Source: Oscillospiraceae bacterium | GTDB lineage: Bacteria > Bacillota > Clostridia > Oscillospirales > Oscillospiraceae | NCBI GenBank assembly: GCA_017549125.1 | Contig: JAFYVL010000051.1 | Location: forward strand, 1 to 32,673 | Length of the DNA: 32,673 nucleotides | Direction: 5' to 3' | In this document: positions 24,365 to 32,033 of the stretch, piece by piece | Layout: each line of letters begins with the position of its first letter | How positions within the stretch are numbered: position 1 is the stretch's first letter | Program-made: the position numbers and the translations under genes | Notes under the pieces: generated by a model | What the model saw: only the letters and a program-made list of their open reading frames with translations | The model's database searches: none | What the model was told of the DNA's origin: nothing

Positions 24365-24393
24365 TTGACTTTTGGGCATATGATTGATAAAAT
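24365..24393 (+). promoter_or_regulatory. Promoter of the island membrane-protein gene
   Basis: TTGACT (24365-24370), 17 bp, TAAAAT (24388-24393). Its position places transcription start after the upstream in-frame start candidates and supports translation from ATG 24428. Confidence 0.7.
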
Positions 24394-24427
24394 GTTGGCA
24401 ACGAAGAGACGAGGGGGACTTGTAACG

Positions 24428-25063
24428 ATGATTATTGCTGCTTTAATAATTATTTGCGTTATTGTCATTGTGACCTTATCAAATTCGAATAACAGCCCCA
24501 ATATTAACAACAATTTGCCTTTTGATAACGTATTTAAAGATCGCATAGGGCAAGATCCTACAGCCTATATTTCTAGCAAATTGGCCAGCGGATCAGATTT
24601 GGATGCCGTTCGGTATTTGTTTGATATTATCGCAGCAGAAATTGAGTTAAAAAGTAAGTGCATGTCTCCTGGATTTGATTTTTACTATGCAAAAACGACG
24701 GGAAATAACTCGATAAAATCAGGCGAGCCAACAAAGGCAACGCCCGTAGTGACGCAAAGAATACCTTCAAGCACCACACCAAAACATTGTTGGACTATAG
24801 AGGAAGATGCATTGTGCTGCAGACGGTTTTTCGAGCAATACGTGATTCAACAGAGTTCTATGGATCTTCAGCAATTTGCAGAACAATTACATATGGAATT
24901 GCCTAGTATTTCCGTGGGTTCCTTGAAAATGAAAACACAGAATATTAAGCAGCTCTGTATAGAACATGGTATTAAGAACAGTCTTACTGCAAAACCGTTA
25001 GCTCAGTATTCTCGGCAGAACCATCATGCTTTCCTAAAAGTTAAGCAACAATTTGGTTATTAA
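24428..25063 (+). CDS. Single-pass membrane protein of unknown function next to the RT pair
   Basis: A 211-residue protein with an N-terminal TM (MIIAALIIICVIVIVTL) and a 190-residue soluble part. The last 90 residues form a conserved-looking helical domain: HCWTIEEDALCCRRFFEQYV, then LPSISVGSLKMKTQNIKQLCIEHGI and PLAQYSRQNHHAF. I recall similar W-T-x-E-E-D and SxxMKxQNIK stretches in Firmicute proteins beside nucleases and defence genes, but cannot name the family. Start choice: GAGGGGG at 24411-24417 lies 10 nt before ATG 24428, and the promoter -10 overlaps the earlier candidates (24380, 24392). Those earlier starts would add KRR residues that fit the positive-inside rule. It is codirectional with the RTs but separated by 266 nt with a terminator. 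Confidence 0.68.
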   Translation: MIIAALIIICVIVIVTLSNSNNSPNINNNLPFDNVFKDRIGQDPTAYISSKLASGSDLDAVRYLFDIIAAEIELKSKCMSPGFDFYYAKTTGNNSIKSGEPTKATPVVTQRIPSSTTPKHCWTIEEDALCCRRFFEQYVIQQSSMDLQQFAEQLHMELPSISVGSLKMKTQNIKQLCIEHGIKNSLTAKPLAQYSRQNHHAFLKVKQQFGY

Positions 25064-25084
25064 TAATCCATAGAAAAGTTGTAT

Positions 25085-25177
25085 ATGATCTATAATATCT
25101 GCTACCTGCACCAGCAATCCGGCTTCATCGCCGACCTCAAACTCGCCCACCTCCTCTCCCACGAACTGAACGCCTAA
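25085..25177 (+). pseudogene. Short GC-rich gene tail (30 codons)
   Basis: The frame MIYNICYLHQQSGFIADLKL, then AHLLSHELNA and stop, uses C-ending codons like the Fic remnant and unlike the AT-rich flanking genes. It has no ribosome binding site and is followed by a strong hairpin, so it looks like the 3' end of a lost gene with its terminator. The parent family is not recognised. Confidence 0.45.
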
Positions 25178-25189
25178 CCCAACGCAACA

Positions 25190-25213
25190 GGCCCAGCTCA
25201 TCCGAGCTGGGCC
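25190..25213 (+). terminator. Terminator upstream of the RT operon
   Basis: GGCCCAGCTC / GAGCTGGGCC (25190-25199 with 25204-25213), 10-bp stem and 4-nt loop, followed by GTTTAGT. It insulates the RT operon. Confidence 0.72.
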
Positions 25214-25254
25214 GTTTAGTCAGACCTATGCATCATAGCAATTCCAACATCAAT

Positions 25255-25283
25255 TTGAAATATGCGTAAATCTGTGCTATAAT
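25255..25283 (+). promoter_or_regulatory. Promoter of the reverse-transcriptase operon
   Basis: TTGAAA (25255-25260), 17 bp, TATAAT (25278-25283), 46 bp before the drt3a start. Near-consensus, so expression may be constitutive. Confidence 0.85.
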
Positions 25284-25329
25284 GTATATGAATATAGTAC
25301 CTTCTGTAGAAAAAGGAGGAAATGTAGAT

Positions 25330-26694
25330 ATGAAAAATGAGTTACAGAAGATCGCAGAATACCAAAATGCTCTTTTGCCACTTCATGAAAGAAAAACAGA
25401 ACAAGCGATCAAAGATGCGGTAGATAATGCAGAAAAAGCCTATAAAGATAGATCTTATAATTTTAAAAACTACTCTACGTTAAAGCTACGACAGGGAAGT
25501 GATCGCAGAATAGTAAAGATGTATTCTCCTTTTTCGTCAGAGGAGCTGCTGTGCATTTATCTGAAACGAGTTTTAGATAAAAAGTATCATATTTCCTACC
25601 CGAATCGTAACACGTTTATTCGATCTTTGTTTGACACGATTTACGGACTGAAGGATATGTCTGATTATGTAATATTTAAATTTGACTTTTCTGATTTTTT
25701 CAATTCTGTTTCCAGTGTGTATGTATACCAAAAGTATATTAAAGAAGTTGGACTGGAACGTTTTCAATCAGAGTTACTAAGGGAATTTGTTGAGAGTACA
25801 GAATATGCTTATGCTGGTTTAAACACATCTAATATTCTATGTGAAATTGCAGCAAAATCGTTTGATTCCTTGGTAATGCAAAAATTTAAGGATGCTGGCT
25901 TAATACTTTACAAAAGATATGTTGACGATGGGATTATCATTTTTAATCGCTATATAAGCAAGGATGACTGCGTTGCATGCATTCAAGATGCTATTAAAGA
26001 GGCTTTTTATGATTGTGCTTCAGCCAATGCTGCATCGTGCAAGGTAGAACTTAATAGTGGTAAAACAGCGTACATTGCAAGAAGAAATATGGTTGTTGGT
26101 GGTAATGCTTCTGAATTTGATTTTCTTGGTTATGTATTTGTACTGAATGCAAAAATAGGCGGTAAGACGGAAAAAACTGAATTTCAGTACGGAATAACCG
26201 ACAAGAAGATTGCAAAATACACCAAAAGAATAAACAAAATTGTTAGAGAATACAACGAGGCTCCGCAAAAAAACATGGAGCTATTAAGACATCAAATTAA
26301 GGCATTTACACACCGGACAGTTTACAGAATCAACCGATATAAGAGTGTTATATGGAAGAGCAAAGGATTCTTATCAAATTATTGCGAATTGCGTTTTCAT
26401 ATGGACGAACTTACGCCGAAGACAGAAAAATTTCTTAAAGAAGTTGTTAGAGATGCTTTTGCGATCAACGGTGTTGCGTTACCTTATTTTATGACGAACA
26501 AAGATGGCGAGTCGATATATAGTTTGTATAACAATATGAGAAAATATCGGACACTTTTGCTTGTTGAGATGATCGGTATAGATTGTGGTGCTCTTAAGAA
26601 AATGTGTTCTCAAGTTGGTATCGATGTGACAACAGGAAAAGGCTATGATGGTCTGGTTCGAGATTATTTGATCAAGGTGAAAGTAGGTCACTGA
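25330..26694 (+). CDS. drt3a: Reverse transcriptase, probable antiphage Drt3a (UG3-like)
   Basis: A 454-residue RT. Motif A is KFDFSDFFNS at residues 117-126, motif B the unusual GLNTSNILCEIA at 163-174, and the catalytic YVDD at 197-200 (RYVDDGIIIF). The C-terminal ~200 residues form a thumb/extra domain rich in Lys/Arg with no maturase, HNH or RNase H features. AAGGAGG at 25313-25319 decides ATG 25330. It is followed on the same strand by a second, dissimilar RT; paired RTs of this size ratio are the hallmark of DRT type 3 defence (Drt3a with Drt3b), which protects against phages. The assignment rests on architecture and motif style, not on a profile search. Markedly AT-rich compared with the housekeeping genes, pointing to horizontal transfer. 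Confidence 0.75.
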   Translation: MKNELQKIAEYQNALLPLHERKTEQAIKDAVDNAEKAYKDRSYNFKNYSTLKLRQGSDRRIVKMYSPFSSEELLCIYLKRVLDKKYHISYPNRNTFIRSLFDTIYGLKDMSDYVIFKFDFSDFFNSVSSVYVYQKYIKEVGLERFQSELLREFVESTEYAYAGLNTSNILCEIAAKSFDSLVMQKFKDAGLILYKRYVDDGIIIFNRYISKDDCVACIQDAIKEAFYDCASANAASCKVELNSGKTAYIARRNMVVGGNASEFDFLGYVFVLNAKIGGKTEKTEFQYGITDKKIAKYTKRINKIVREYNEAPQKNMELLRHQIKAFTHRTVYRINRYKSVIWKSKGFLSNYCELRFHMDELTPKTEKFLKEVVRDAFAINGVALPYFMTNKDGESIYSLYNNMRKYRTLLLVEMIGIDCGALKKMCSQVGIDVTTGKGYDGLVRDYLIKVKVGH

Positions 26695-26883
26695 AAAAGA
26701 GAAAGGAGCCTCCGGTTTCCCTTTGGCCCCTTAATCCGAGTCTAAAAATGTATATAGCCTCTTTACGTAACCATTAGCGAAGCTTTGAAATGGCTACATC
26801 GCTGATGTGTGCAACTCTTGCGAATCGCAGTAAGGCAGTACTTCCTTACATTCGTATTATATCCAATTGTTGGAGGAAATGCA
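26695..26883 (+). ncRNA. Structured intergenic RNA candidate between the two RT genes
   Basis: The 189-nt gap has no ORF but holds three good hairpins: AAGGAGCC/GGCCCCTT (26703-26710 with 26725-26732, one mismatch), ACATC/GATGT (26796-26808, 3-nt loop), and CGAAT-GTAAGG / CCTTAC-ATTCG (26821-26854, one bulge). A TGTGTG run follows the second hairpin at 26806-26811. No promoter stands out inside it, so it would be cut from or read within the operon mRNA. DRT systems commonly need an RNA partner; that this is the one is inference. Confidence 0.55.
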
Positions 26884-28872
26884 ATGAAAAAATCATGTAA
26901 TATCGAAAGAAATCGATTGGATTATTTATTAACAGATATTATGCCGGTAGAAGTGTCCGAGTTATTCTCTTTTGGTAAGTTTTATGAGTATATCCTTTCA
27001 CGCCAAAATGAGATTGATGACATTGTTCACGAGCTGCGAGCCAGCAAAGCTAAGAATACCGAGACACCATTTTCAGGGAATTGGGCGTCAACACCGTTAA
27101 AATACAGCATTCTCAAGGGAACAAGCAGTACACGCGAATTAAATCTGGTTCAACCAATAGCGGCATTAAATATGTACTTCTTTATTGAGTGCTATCAAAA
27201 GGAGATACTAGACTCATTTGAAGATAAATCTTGTTTTTCTCTTCGTTATCATCGAAAGAATACAGATCTTTACTATAAGAAAAAAGTTAAGCGGATTGCA
27301 GACTATTTTGAGAAAACTTCACGAAAGGTTGACAGGGGTATCTTACAACAAACAGGTGCGTTTTTTAAAATTCACAAATTTAATTCAGTTTCTTCTTTTA
27401 CCAATTCTCGTTTGTGGCAACAATGTAACTTTAAGTATCGTAACTTCGCTAAGATAGATTATAAATCGTGTTTTGACAGCATTTACTCTCACGCATTTAA
27501 GTGGTGTATAGAGAAGAATACAGTGGATTCTAAAGCGGCCCAAAATTCCAACTTGTACATAGTAATTGACCGTGTTCTCCAAAATATAAACGGTAGATCT
27601 TCTAACGGTGTCATTGTCGGACCAGAATTTTCACGTATGATAGCGGAAGTTCTCCTAGAATATATTGATGTGGAAGTAAAAACTGAACTGGCAGCGGAGG
27701 GCCTCCAAGTGGGCCGGGACTATCGCGTGTTTCGTTACGTTGATGATGTTTATATTTTCTCCAATAGTCAGGAACAGACAGAGCTGATCATTAAAACAAT
27801 TGAAAGAGTATCGCAACGATACTTATTACGGCTCAATGAGTTAAAATACTTTAAGTCTGATACGCCAGTTATTATGAGTACATGGTTAGGAAAGACGCGA
27901 GAATTATCTGACAAGATAGCCGACTTATTTTATCGAAAACATGAGCTTTACGAGAATAAAATGACAGGTCCGTTGCTTAAAGATGGATATATCTCATTAG
28001 AAAGGTTAAAAGATGACTTTATCTACTTGATTCATCAATATCCAAATGAACAGAGATATATCGTGTCGTTTATGCTAAGTACATTGTTAAACAATGTAAG
28101 CAACAAGAAAGATGGGTATTCACTGTTTGATTCGACCAAGCAAGGAAAGGCGTTTGTATTGCTTGATTTGGCAATGTATATCTACTCGTTCTGTCCCTGC
28201 TTTGAGCACACCCAGAAGATTATTTCTATGCTGGTCTATATGGATGATGAATTGAAATTTCAAACTGATGAACTTAATCATAAAAAGTTGGTTAATTTGG
28301 TACGAAGATATTCTTTTGTTTTTGAGAAGGGAAATTTAAACGATCTTTGTAATTGGTTTGTATTTTTCTTTGATTATAAGATTAGTCTGACTAATACTGT
28401 TGAAGAGAAGATAGAAGTAAAATTAGAAAATGAAGATAATCCTATTTTGTGGGCAAACTATCTGATCTATAGCCAGTATTTTAACACATATCACGAAGAT
28501 ATTAAAAAGCGTGTTGAACAAAGATTGTCATATAAAATAAACCAGATTGGAATAAAAGAGGTAGTGCTGCAAAAAGAATTCTGGTATGTGTTGGTGTTTA
28601 TCAATTGCCCTTATATTTCTAATGCAACCAAGACAAAACTTACTACAATTGTTCAGAATTTGAAAAAGACCGCTCCGACAAAGGCCCCCGAAAAAGCAAC
28701 TAATATTATTTGTGACTTTTTGCTTCAGACTACCTCAAATCTTTTCTTTTATTGGGGATATTATCATTTTAATACGAGCAAGCAGTTAACATTTAGAACC
28801 TATCAGAGAACATTGTTTAAGCAGTATAAAAATAAAAGATCTGTTGAACTGTATGGCAGTCTAGATACTTAA
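26884..28872 (+). CDS. drt3b: Reverse transcriptase, probable antiphage Drt3b (UG8-like)
   Basis: A 662-residue RT. Motif A is FAKIDYKSCFDSI with D192 and D198, motif B SSNGVIVGPEFSRMIAE at 239-255, and the catalytic YVDD at 285-288 (FRYVDDVYIF). The layout (long N-terminal region, AbiK/AbiA-like motif B, and a C-terminal ~330-residue alpha-helical region with no known nuclease) matches class 2 'unknown group' RTs linked to phage defence. TGGAGG at 26871-26876 sets the ATG at 26884; the longer frame runs into the structured gap. It ends 18 nt before a bidirectional terminator. Together with the preceding RT it probably forms a DRT3 system. Low GC and no integrase or intron sequences nearby. 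Confidence 0.75.
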   Translation: MKKSCNIERNRLDYLLTDIMPVEVSELFSFGKFYEYILSRQNEIDDIVHELRASKAKNTETPFSGNWASTPLKYSILKGTSSTRELNLVQPIAALNMYFFIECYQKEILDSFEDKSCFSLRYHRKNTDLYYKKKVKRIADYFEKTSRKVDRGILQQTGAFFKIHKFNSVSSFTNSRLWQQCNFKYRNFAKIDYKSCFDSIYSHAFKWCIEKNTVDSKAAQNSNLYIVIDRVLQNINGRSSNGVIVGPEFSRMIAEVLLEYIDVEVKTELAAEGLQVGRDYRVFRYVDDVYIFSNSQEQTELIIKTIERVSQRYLLRLNELKYFKSDTPVIMSTWLGKTRELSDKIADLFYRKHELYENKMTGPLLKDGYISLERLKDDFIYLIHQYPNEQRYIVSFMLSTLLNNVSNKKDGYSLFDSTKQGKAFVLLDLAMYIYSFCPCFEHTQKIISMLVYMDDELKFQTDELNHKKLVNLVRRYSFVFEKGNLNDLCNWFVFFFDYKISLTNTVEEKIEVKLENEDNPILWANYLIYSQYFNTYHEDIKKRVEQRLSYKINQIGIKEVVLQKEFWYVLVFINCPYISNATKTKLTTIVQNLKKTAPTKAPEKATNIICDFLLQTTSNLFFYWGYYHFNTSKQLTFRTYQRTLFKQYKNKRSVELYGSLDT

Positions 28873-28889
28873 GTCTATAACATAGAAAG

Positions 28890-28921
28890 CTCCCTCCCGT
28901 GGAAATTAACTCGGGAGGGAG
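28890..28921. terminator. Bidirectional terminator between drt3b and the XRE gene
   Basis: CTCCCTCCCG / CGGGAGGGAG (28890-28899 with 28912-28921), 10-bp GC-rich stem. The genes on either side converge on it. Confidence 0.8.
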
Positions 28922-28926
28922 AATTG

Positions 28927-29169
28927 TTATTTAATTTCTTGCTCCAATCCTGCAAACAAATCAGAATGGAAGAACTCGTCGATGGTAATACCCAAACCGT
29001 CACATAACTTCTTGATGGTGGATACGGTTGCGCTGTTATTTCTGCCGCTAACGATATTGTTTACGGTTGACTGCGTAATGCCGCTAATACTACTCAGTTT
29101 GTTAATGGAGATATCTCGTTCTTGGCACAGTTGAATAATTCTCTGCCGGACAGCTTCGCCTACGGTCAT
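28927..29169 (-). CDS. XRE-family (Cro/CI-like) transcriptional regulator
   Basis: An 80-residue single-domain HTH protein: RQRIIQLCQERDISINKLSSISGITQSTVNNIVSGRNNSATVSTIKKLCDGLGITIDEFF, a textbook HTH_3 domain. ATG 29169 has GAGGTG 6 nt upstream; the longer GTG start would lie inside that site. It is divergent from the SLOG gene with 91 nt between the starts. That gap holds two inverted repeats, so it probably represses itself and perhaps its neighbour. Its convergent position after drt3b suggests it could also belong to the defence island's control. Confidence 0.9.
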   Translation of the reverse strand: MTVGEAVRQRIIQLCQERDISINKLSSISGITQSTVNNIVSGRNNSATVSTIKKLCDGLGITIDEFFHSDLFAGLEQEIK

Positions 29170-29260: not shown

Positions 29261-29707
29261 ATGTCAGCGTGTACATTTTTTGGTCACCGGGATTGCCCGG
29301 AAACGATAAAACCGAAGTTAAGAGAGGCACTTATAGATCTGATAATCACCCACGATGTGGATATGTTCTATGTAGGCCACCAAGGTCAATTTGATGCCTA
29401 TGTGCATAGTGAGCTAAAGAGATTAAAGCAGGAATATCCACAGATTAACTACGCAGTTGTGCTGGCCTATATGCCTGGTAAGAAGACTGAATACGACGAC
29501 TACTCCGACACCATGCTCCCGGAGGGGATCGAATCTGTCCACCCGCATTATGCCATCTCCTGGCGCAACAACTGGATGCTCAAACAATCCAACTACGTCG
29601 TCACCTACATCACCCATTCCTGGGGCGGCGCATATCAGTACGCCGAAAAAGCCAGGCGGCAAAAGAAAGTTGTGATCAATCTAAAAAACCTCTTGACTCT
29701 AACGTAA
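29261..29707 (+). CDS. SLOG-family Rossmann-like protein
   Basis: A 148-residue protein with the SLOG/YpsA-type layout: N-terminal strand and loop CTFFGHRDCP, a second FYVGHQGQFDAYVHSEL (the nucleotide-binding GxxGxFD), the middle strand YAVVLAYMPG and the C-terminal THSWGGAYQYAEKARRQKKVVINL. SLOG domains bind nucleotides or nucleotide-derived ligands, and relatives sense second messengers in defence systems such as Thoeris; small stand-alone members like this one have no known function. It is divergent from an XRE gene and its ribosome binding site lies in an inverted repeat. Confidence 0.85.
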   Translation: MSACTFFGHRDCPETIKPKLREALIDLIITHDVDMFYVGHQGQFDAYVHSELKRLKQEYPQINYAVVLAYMPGKKTEYDDYSDTMLPEGIESVHPHYAISWRNNWMLKQSNYVVTYITHSWGGAYQYAEKARRQKKVVINLKNLLTLT

Positions 29708-29743: not shown

Positions 29744-30478
29744 ATGATGACGGTAGCGCAAGTGAGTAAGCGCACCGGTGTCAGTGTGCGGACGCTGCAC
29801 CATTACGATCAGATCGGCCTGCTGAAACCCACCGAGGTAACCGAGGCCGGCTATCGGCTGTATGACGACAGGGCTTTGGACAAGCTTTATATGATCCTGG
29901 TGTATCGGGAGCTGGGCTTGTCCCTGAATGAGATCAGCAGCATTTTGGACGCACCGGACTATGACCGAAACCGGGTTTTAGAGCACCAAATCCAGCTGAT
30001 GCAGGAACGCGTAGAAAAACTGCAAAACCGAATCAGTTTTGCAAGAGGAATGTTAATGTTAGGAGTGAAATATATGGATTTTGAAGGCTTTGACCCCAAG
30101 AAAATTGATGAATACAGCCAGCAGGCCAAGGTGCTTTACGGCAAGACAGATGCCTACAAAGAATTTGAGCAGAAGCAAAAAGGCCGCACCAAGGAACAGG
30201 AAAAGGACCTGAACGCACAGGTGATGGACTTCTTTGTGCGGCTTGGCAAAATGCGCCCCTGCGCACCGGACAGCGAAGCGGCCCAAAATTGGGCGAAGGA
30301 GCTGCAAGCGTTCTTTACGGAGCATTTTTACACCTGCACGCCCCAGATTCTGGGGAGCTTGGCAGAAAGCTACGCCGGCGGTGGCAGTATGACGGAAAAC
30401 ATCGACAAAGTCGGCGGCGAGGGCACAGGTGCCTTCGCCAAGCAGGTCATTGACATTTACACCCAAAACCTGCTATGA
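29744..30478 (+). CDS. MerR-family regulator with TipAS-like domain
   Basis: A 244-residue protein: winged HTH at residues 1-70 (VAQVSKRTGVSVRTLHHYDQIGLLKPTE), a dimerising coiled coil about 75-108, and a C-terminal all-helical TipAS-like domain (residues 115-244, with MDFFVRLGKMRPCAPDSEAAQNWAKELQAFF and the AYAGGGSM-like SYAGGGSMTENIDKVGG). TipA proteins trap thiopeptide or other drugs and activate multidrug genes and their own promoter. AGGAGG at 29731-29736 favours ATG 29744 (MMTVAQV). Its stop overlaps the next gene (ATGA), and a spacer-located dyad at its own promoter supports autoregulation. Confidence 0.9.
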   Translation: MMTVAQVSKRTGVSVRTLHHYDQIGLLKPTEVTEAGYRLYDDRALDKLYMILVYRELGLSLNEISSILDAPDYDRNRVLEHQIQLMQERVEKLQNRISFARGMLMLGVKYMDFEGFDPKKIDEYSQQAKVLYGKTDAYKEFEQKQKGRTKEQEKDLNAQVMDFFVRLGKMRPCAPDSEAAQNWAKELQAFFTEHFYTCTPQILGSLAESYAGGGSMTENIDKVGGEGTGAFAKQVIDIYTQNLL

Positions 30479-30911: not shown

Positions 30912-32033
30912 TCAATCCTTGAGGACAAACTGCAGCATTTTGAATGCGGCAGATTTCTTGGCGTCTTTTTTTGAGGACGATTTTGCCGAGAAAGATTTGC
31001 TTTCTTCTGCAATGTGACAAACGCTTTTCCAGATGGGATTTCCATCCTTATCATAGGTTTGCTCAAATTCATAGGTAGGGATGGAAAAGTAACCACGCCG
31101 AGCCAGAATCTCCAATTGATTAATGGCGTCATCCTTGTTTGGATATTCAATTTCGTCCCGGATAGAAAGCCAGAGTCCCTGTTTACAGAGGTAGTCGTAA
31201 GCGAGCTTGCAAACATTATTTCTTGCCTCGGCTTGTGTCTGTCCAAAGCCCCGAAAAATAGGTAGATCATCAGATAACTTTAAAAGACAGTGCCATTTTG
31301 TTTTGTGGATCTCCCGATCGTCAAGGCTTTTTGGCTGCTGGGAAATACCGTCAAATTGTGTGTACCAAGTGATTTGGTAGTCTCTTTCATCGAAATGGTA
31401 TAACGGGATGTCGCCCATTTTGTTATACGACCACTCTTGGACCATTGTGGGGTAGTCTTCTGCATCGCCATCGGCAAGAACGCTCTTTGGGGACAACATG
31501 ATCTCTACGGCATTTTGCAGCTTTTCTATATTCCAGTTGCAGTCAATTGCAATCGCACCGAGAATTGCTTCAAACAGATCCTCCTTGACGGAATTCTCTT
31601 GTCCGATGTTTTGCCGAATGTCACCGCTGCCCATCAGCAGGCAGTAGCCGATACCCAGTTCGTCGATACGATTGGCTAGCGTCTTTTTCTGTACCAAAAG
31701 TTTTTTGATTTCGGTAAGCTCCGCTTCTGAATAGTCCGATACCAGCACATTTTCGTCAGGGAAAGTCTTTTGCTCCGTCATATAAGCCCAGGTGTTTTTT
31801 AGTTTGGGGTCGTGCTTTTTGTAGAGTCCTACTGCATTGCTGTTCTGAGAGATCAAGAGCTTTACTACAAAGAGGTCAAGAACTTTATCACCGATAAATT
31901 CTAGCACCTCGTTGTTTTCACCGCCGTTTTCCTCCGAATAGGAGCGCCTCGTAAATGCCTGCTGCAACAAATCCAAATTGTTAAATGTGTAGCCGATTTG
32001 ATCTTGGATAAATTGCAAATCTGATTGTTCCAT
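30912..32033 (-). CDS. Accessory RNase III with two predicted dsRNA-binding domains
   Basis: A 373-residue protein. The RNase III domain spans about 1-180: the signature NNEVLEFIGDKVLDLF holds E45 and D49, and KEDLFEAILGA holds D152 and E155, so all key catalytic acids are present. Two dsRBD-like regions follow: about 193-285 (ending GQTQAEARNNVCKLAYDYL) and 303-373 (ending SSKKDAKKSAAFKMLQFVL), each with the alpha-beta-beta-beta-alpha pattern and the Lys-rich final helix in the second. Bacterial housekeeping RNase III has one dsRBD and ~230 residues, so this is longer and probably accessory. AAAGGAG precedes ATG 32033 but lies in a hairpin. It is transcribed from 32274 with a ~210-nt leader and heads an operon with the acidic 55-aa protein. 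Confidence 0.85.
   Translation of the reverse strand: MEQSDLQFIQDQIGYTFNNLDLLQQAFTRRSYSEENGGENNEVLEFIGDKVLDLFVVKLLISQNSNAVGLYKKHDPKLKNTWAYMTEQKTFPDENVLVSDYSEAELTEIKKLLVQKKTLANRIDELGIGYCLLMGSGDIRQNIGQENSVKEDLFEAILGAIAIDCNWNIEKLQNAVEIMLSPKSVLADGDAEDYPTMVQEWSYNKMGDIPLYHFDERDYQITWYTQFDGISQQPKSLDDREIHKTKWHCLLKLSDDLPIFRGFGQTQAEARNNVCKLAYDYLCKQGLWLSIRDEIEYPNKDDAINQLEILARRGYFSIPTYEFEQTYDKDGNPIWKSVCHIAEESKSFSAKSSSKKDAKKSAAFKMLQFVLKD

Follow-up and report, generated by a model that had tools for sequence, protein, structure and literature searches.

The window analysed here is a stretch of 32,673 nucleotides (nt) from an Oscillospiraceae bacterium (contig JAFYVL010000051.1 of assembly GCA_017549125.1). 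Between positions 25255 and 28872 it carries two reverse transcriptase (RT) genes, drt3a and drt3b, separated by a gap of 189 nt. Together, the genes and their gap probably form a divergent DRT3-type (UG3 plus UG8) antiphage system, in which the gene for the template RNA lies between the RT genes and is transcribed against them. Sequence comparison underlies the identity of the RTs, the conservation of their residues, and the predicted structured RNA gene with its strand and promoter position. Transcription, RNA binding, products and a role in defence are what we infer for the system from homology. The features, including a predicted noncoding RNA (ncRNA), are as follows:

25255..25283, plus strand: drt3a promoter, TTGAAA-17-TATAAT with an extended -10, 11 of 12 consensus positions
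25330..26694, plus strand: drt3a, UG3-type RT of 454 amino acids (aa) with YVDD; PADLOC Drt3a, E 9.6e-39
26694..26737, minus strand: terminal hairpin and T-rich tail of the ncRNA, a predicted intrinsic terminator (from fold and sequence)
26695..26849, minus strand: predicted template ncRNA of about 155 nt with five hairpins, antisense to the operon mRNA (from covariance models R1 and R2, covariation and fold; ends predicted)
26800..26812, minus strand: unpaired core GCACACATCAGCG, with the predicted template CACACA at 26806-26811
26856..26884, minus strand: predicted ncRNA promoter, -10 TATAAT at 26856-26861 and -35 TTGCAT at 26879-26884, a pair found at this place in nine of nine loci
26884..28872, plus strand: drt3b, UG8-type RT of 662 aa with YVDD; PADLOC Drt3b, E 1.8e-121

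The two RT genes

Both open reading frames (ORFs) are present as the first-pass annotation, made from the letters alone, had described them: two consecutive, dissimilar RTs, each with YVDD and, as it turns out, each with a different best RT profile. Longer starts exist for both. The drt3a ORF could begin at 25282 (470 aa), with the ATG at 25330 preceded by AAAGGAGG, and the drt3b ORF at 26809 (687 aa), with the ATG at 26884 preceded by TTGGAGG. A purine-rich ribosome site precedes both genes alike. The operon was also said to be AT-rich compared with its surroundings, and it is: the GC content is 0.33-0.37 per kilobase across 25001-29000, compared with 0.425 immediately upstream and 0.44-0.57 in the remaining tabulated kilobases. 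The promoter at 25255-25283 is the top scorer among 14 promoter-like sites in an automatic scan, a number that is at the level of shuffled sequence (mean 15.3). The annotation had the operon driven by this one near-consensus promoter. The promoter is there, but the description is incomplete, as a second transcription unit is predicted on the minus strand inside the same stretch.

Profile searches place the two proteins in the two DRT3 families. The best PADLOC profile for the first RT is Drt3a, at 132 bits compared with 36 for the next family. For the second RT it is Drt3b, which scores 405 bits across residues 2-648, ahead of Drt6 as the next family at 109. NCBIfam also puts Drt3a (NF041747) and Drt3b (NF041748) first. 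Compared with solved structures, the second RT matches 26cz (E 1.1e-34) and 9z6y/9z6z (2.1e-30), with weaker RTs after, and the first RT matches 9z6y/9z6z (E 2.2e-6). Retron profiles reach at most 36.4 bits among the matches listed and a group II profile reaches 34.0 and 41.9 bits with the window RTs, so by profile score neither protein falls with group II intron or retron RTs. Profile scans list no maturase domain for either RT. The annotated lack of maturase, endonuclease and RNase H features also holds among Pfam matches at E <=1, where RVT_1 is the sole real match. On Drt3a this match scores 28.0, slightly below the gathering score of 29.6; the other Pfam rows for both RTs are few, sub-threshold and at chance level.

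The earlier description of a DRT3 operon or a close relative was right as to kind but not as to closeness. Both NCBIfam equivalog cut-offs are missed, with 102.6 against 200 bits for Drt3a and 238.7 against 350 bits for Drt3b. The same cut-offs are missed by the other members of the window's clade that were tested (L003, L013, and L008) and by a Pediococcus locus (L011), and are passed by a Vibrio locus (L010). The comparison supports an operon that is DRT3 in kind, yet a distant relative.

A clade with a conserved layout

Nine loci, the window included, have the layout drt3a, gap, drt3b with both genes in the same direction. The gap measures 134-289 nt across the nine. The other eight, with the identity of their Drt3b to that of the window, are:

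L002: 49%
L003, Ruminococcus albus: 64%
L004: 63%
L005: 61%
L012 and L013, IMG/VR viral contigs: 47-48%
L007, 'Bacteriophage sp.': 41%
L008, Erysipelothrix phage SE-1: 31%

In a tree of Drt3b homologues all nine form one group with support 100/100. A tree of Drt3a homologues groups eight of the nine with the same support (with a long-branch warning for L008); L002 is left out there because its drt3a is cut. The Drt3a starts of L003, L005, and L017 are approximate in the tree set, and L009 is omitted from the Drt3b tree because its drt3b is annotated in two pieces. The trees contain Drt3a and Drt3b homologues only; they are unrooted and include several long branches.

The clade is rare. At E <=1e-20 it occurs in two of 394 genomes sampled from the order (its own and that of L002) and in one of 398 from the phylum (its own). 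Two of 300 genomes in the family sample match (its own and a weak partial match, L016), as do two of 391 in the class sample (its own and L017, which is not in the clade). These four samples overlap. L016 enters the genome tallies only, L019 (a 27% Drt3a match) stands outside the locus comparisons, and L006 begins inside drt3b and has no gap. Ten of the 11 plasmid records that match the window Drt3b were taken in, leaving out H4 (L. plantarum); the L007 Drt3b query found no plasmid at 1e-40. Single-protein queries with the Drt3b of the window, L007, L011, and L017 found no relatives among viral contigs, and alignment queries found three loci (one being phage SE-1 again) and two loci (one being the L012 contig again). 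Of the clade loci, L007 and L008 are in phage records, and L012 and L013 are in the viral contigs. Among eight flanking proteins scanned with PHROGs, helicase and DNA polymerase genes were seen near L012 and two integrase genes near L013.

Residues of the two enzymes

What DRT3 does is known from E. coli. There, Drt3a copies an ACACAC RNA into poly(dTdG), and Drt3b builds poly(dCdA) by means of its own residues, primed on a tyrosine; the resulting duplex drives abortive infection and is restrained by RecBCD (Wang et al. 2026, PMC13174585). Of UG3 RTs, 97% are reported to adjoin a UG8 RT (PMC8934634).

In the window, the catalytic residues D119, D199, and D200 of Drt3a are conserved in all 19 aligned Drt3a rows. 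The window Drt3b residues E23, R84, F197, and R251 align with E22, R71, F187, and R241 of the E. coli protein, the set tied there to the choice of dA and dC (E22 and R241, and also R71 and F187). This numbering is obtained by subtracting 108 from the 26cz chain numbers, which places the residues named by Wang et al. on those of the window, and from this fit we infer that 26cz is the Drt3b of that study. F197 and R251 are conserved in 19 of 19 aligned Drt3b proteins. E23 and R84 are each conserved in 18 of 19, the exceptions being Vibrio L010 (D in place of E23) and L025 (N in place of R84). All four are kept in every one of the nine clade members. Since the dA/dC-selecting residues of Drt3b are kept, the predicted products are unchanged: poly(dTdG) and poly(dCdA).

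The candidate priming tyrosine of the window Drt3b is Y648 (in LFKQY), which is in place in eight of nine clade members. In SE-1 the column holds S and the protein ends in Y one residue later. The window protein differs from the E. coli one in having 14 extra residues (KNKRSVELYGSLDT) beyond this tyrosine.

A predicted structured RNA on the opposite strand

The gap carries a predicted, conserved structured RNA gene on the minus strand, with its promoter at the start of drt3b. The first line of evidence is repeat content. The longest AC run of the gap is on the minus strand in all nine clade loci, with 6-9 nt in eight and 5 nt in L008. On the plus strand, AC runs in the gap and in the 250 nt downstream of drt3b (87 nt only for L003) stay at 5 nt or less in all nine loci, the window among them. 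An exact ACACACA occurs once in the window, at the distant position 31357, and was set aside. A pattern combining the core with a T-run matched none of 19 loci and was too strict.

The second is the promoter. A minus-strand -35/-10 pair is found at the drt3b start in nine of nine loci, matching 9-12 of 12 positions (shuffle P 0.0 to 0.067). The -10 boxes are TATAAT (six), TATAGT, TATTAT, and AATAAT. In the window the promoter extends across the ribosome site of drt3b as far as the first base of its start codon. The first T of the -35 box is opposite the A of the start codon in seven loci. In L007 and L008 it lies 6 nt into the gene, and L007 has a second ATG at exactly that position.

The third is the fold. 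The minus-strand RNA of the window folds with a z score of -4.0, and the minus strand has a lower fold energy than the plus strand in nine of nine loci. The window fold has five hairpins, with GCACACAUCAGCG mostly unpaired between hairpins 2 and 3. The folds of L004, L013, and L003 resemble it and those of L007 and L008 do so partly. Covariation was assessed on a MAFFT alignment of four sequences with the structure taken from L004. Two-sided changes are present in 22 of 53 pairs, a count that none of 500 shuffles attains and that falls to 1-5 when the partners are shifted by 1-3 columns. With seven sequences the count rises to 41 of 53 (again 0 of 500 shuffles), although that alignment is model-fitted and therefore leans to the model.

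Covariance models locate the same element. R1, built from the window, L003, L004, and L005, was used to search 221,686 bases from 23 sources and newly matched L012 (E 1.2e-7), L002 (2.1e-7), and L013 (6.9e-5), all on the minus strand of the gap. It also gave four partial plus-strand matches (E 0.0016-0.068), which are mirror images of hairpins in L004 and L005. On five whole genomes, R2 gave one strong match each at the drt3 locus plus one weak match in the L005 genome (L032, E 0.0019). The latter is regarded as a false positive, with no RT ORF nearby and no CACACA in the match. Rfam at E <=1 returned two matches, both far under gathering; one of them, BjrC68 (17.7 against 39 bits), spans part of the gap on the minus strand.

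Comparison with other DRT3 loci

The likeness of the window system to E. coli DRT3 (PDB 26cz, 9z6y, 9z6z) lies in the UG3 and UG8 RTs with YVDD, in the equivalents of E22, R71, F187, and R241, and in a structured RNA, predicted in the case of the window, whose AC-repeat core lies in an unpaired region. The difference is in placement. The E. coli RNA is downstream of drt3b, whereas the window RNA is predicted between the RT genes and on the opposite strand. The downstream position is a trait of the systems described so far, one that the mechanism is not known to require. In eight loci from Proteobacteria and Bacteroides the RT genes overlap by 4-11 nt (seven) or abut (one), and all eight have a plus-strand alternating AC run of at least 6 nt, 42-222 nt after drt3b. 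The window core differs at one of 13 positions from GCACACACCAGCG, the corresponding core in the RNA that lies downstream of drt3b on an E. coli plasmid (L009), where it also lies directly 3' of a hairpin. In the annotation of this plasmid, drt3b (L009:3956-5999) is in two pieces and seems to be interrupted; the neighbouring drt3a is full-length, and a candidate AC-repeat RNA lies downstream.

Other divergent DRT3-like pairs are found on two Lactobacillales plasmids (L011 and L026, the latter counted via a Drt3b 99% identical to that of L011) and in the window's class (L017). Their RT genes stand back to back:

L011: 2599-6052
L026: 2099-5552
L017: 1-3435

They share with the window the UG3 and UG8 RTs and a repeat in the gap on the strand opposite drt3b (ACACAC in L011 and L026, ACACA in L017). 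The gaps of L011 and L017 fold strongly, at z about -6.8, and a long stem closes their 5' and 3' ends. However, these pairs are outside the nine-locus clade, and with drt3a facing away from drt3b their RNA would be encoded on the drt3a strand.

Beyond DRT3, the tha/ith locus of the S. aureus prophage 80alpha, described as a noncontiguous operon (PMC11087260), offers a parallel, as one gene within this defence operon runs against the others. The product of that gene is an inhibitor protein, whereas the antisense gene of the window would encode the system's own template RNA. The noncontiguous-operon anatomy fits the window, where the gap has no listed plus-strand promoter-like site but does have a plus-strand terminator-like site.

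Which strand, and what function?

Several results weigh against an antisense template RNA, and some of them lend themselves to other explanations. Taken alone, the antisense promoter of the window is weak (9 of 12, shuffle P 0.067; -35 matching 3 of 6), and the automatic scan of the window lists neither this promoter nor the ncRNA terminator. It does list the plus-strand terminator-like site, at 26830-26849 within the gap. The case for the antisense promoter and RNA rests on conservation. Taken one by one, the AC runs of the gaps stand out weakly to moderately from shuffles, with P between 0.0 and 0.236 (0.062 in the window), further pair types in the four-sequence alignment are matched by 10 of 500 shuffles, and at default filters R2 gives no match to L007 or L008. 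With filters off it matches both weakly (E 1.2e-5 and 0.007, in 3,501 bases each), the best match in each being the gap on the minus strand. In addition, MAFFT does not align Y648 with the proteobacterial priming tyrosine (Y666 in E. coli).

Could the gap element act on the plus strand instead, within the operon mRNA, with Drt3a copying a UGUGUG template into poly(dCdA)? A transcript through the gap is required if drt3b has no promoter of its own, and the plus-strand folds, too, beat most shuffles (z -1.1 to -6.0). The pair types speak against it. G-U outnumbers A-C by 46 to 4 pair cells in the model-fitted alignment (where shared ancestry of the cells makes a binomial p look stronger than it is) and by 16 to 2 in a plain MAFFT alignment without L004, the structure donor. 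This excess favours the minus strand, as a plus-strand RNA would give the reverse. The promoter position and the lower minus-strand energy, each in nine of nine loci, point the same way. Moreover, Drt3b keeps its dA/dC-selecting residues, so both enzymes would make the same strand; only with a minus-strand template does the Drt3a product complement the poly(dCdA) expected of Drt3b. The swapped template was dropped on these grounds, and a plus-strand element is very improbable. A different thought is that the hairpins control expression, as an attenuator or antisense regulator, and that the true template RNA of these DRT3-like RTs lies elsewhere. The position at the drt3b start suits regulation, and the minus strand of SE-1 carries a longer AC run downstream of drt3b (7 nt) than in the gap (5 nt). 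R2 also lacks a significant match to the E. coli-type RNA: it finds no downstream-type RNA in the eight loci at E <=5 with default filters, and with filters off the correct place in L009 is only second-best, at a non-significant E of 1.1. Nevertheless, all nine loci retain an ACACA core in the gap. In the folds of the window, L003, L004, and L013 this core adjoins a hairpin and is wholly or almost unpaired, which is also the case in the E. coli plasmid RNA. The absence of a plus-strand AC run of 6 nt or more in the 250 nt (87 nt for L003) downstream of all nine drt3b genes argues against a template there. Such a regulator is unlikely, though less so than a plus-strand template.

The least probable explanation of all is that the operon is a degenerate or inactive remnant of DRT3. 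It is divergent and rare, with its own genome plus at most one other match in each sampled set. However, both frames are open with the catalytic aspartates in place, and the RNA pairs are maintained by compensatory change.

A proposed model with antisense wiring

The antisense template RNA thus preferred suggests the following scheme. Drt3a would bind the minus-strand gap RNA and produce poly(dTdG) by copying the unpaired CACACA over and over. For Drt3b, a tyrosine near the C-terminus (probably Y648) would serve as primer, and E23 and R251 would direct the synthesis of poly(dCdA) with no nucleic acid template. The two strands would anneal, and the double-stranded DNA would arrest the infected cell. 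With the selecting residues of Drt3b kept and the CACACA of the gap present only on the minus strand, the logic of complementary strands would hold.

The gap has no listed plus-strand promoter-like site and therefore drt3b probably relies on readthrough from 25255. In that event the operon mRNA would carry the full complement of the template RNA, since the drt3b message would be read across the RNA gene in the opposite direction, and expression of the RTs and of the template would limit each other. Is a host-toxic RT defence restrained by antisense overlap of its own mRNA and template RNA? Perhaps the wiring is a built-in safety catch, in which promoters face each other, the mRNA is complementary to the template RNA, and the supplies of RT and template exclude or titrate each other, such that toxic repeat DNA arises only when infection disturbs transcription of the operon. 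This idea is tentative, and less likely than not.

DRT3 itself is already known; what the analysis adds is the predicted antisense, gap-encoded template RNA in a distant DRT3-type system. The published RNA seed model was drawn from 250 nt downstream, and a later pass covered 1 kb on both sides with the E. coli-type model (PMC13174585). A divergent branch of DRT3 would thereby gain its missing RNA part, at a place outside the source of that seed model. The predicted template and products would support a two-code model, in which one strand is RNA-coded and the complementary strand protein-coded, across a deep split in the family. Among the matches listed in a literature search, titles and abstract openings mention no gap-encoded or antisense DRT3 RNA. 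The word 'antisense' is absent from the main text of PMC13174585, and passages of a review (PMC13314766) use it for oligonucleotide drugs.

Flanking features

One further feature may belong to the operon:

28890..28921, plus strand: inverted repeat 3' of drt3b, CTCCCTCCCG...CGGGAGGGAG, a possible operon terminator read from the sequence

It is absent from the listing of the automatic terminator scan. Upstream of drt3a is a 232-aa ORF (24365-25063, plus strand) with no Pfam match at E <=0.01. Beside the operon on its other side are genes for a YpsA-like SLOG protein (29261-29704, plus strand), slightly below the Pfam cut-off, and a MerR-TipAS regulator (29744-30475, plus strand). At 30915-32033 on the minus strand, 2 kb from the operon, is a gene for a protein of 373 aa that combines RNase III and dsRNA-binding domains. 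Its presence near an operon in which mRNA and template RNA are expected to pair is probably a coincidence.

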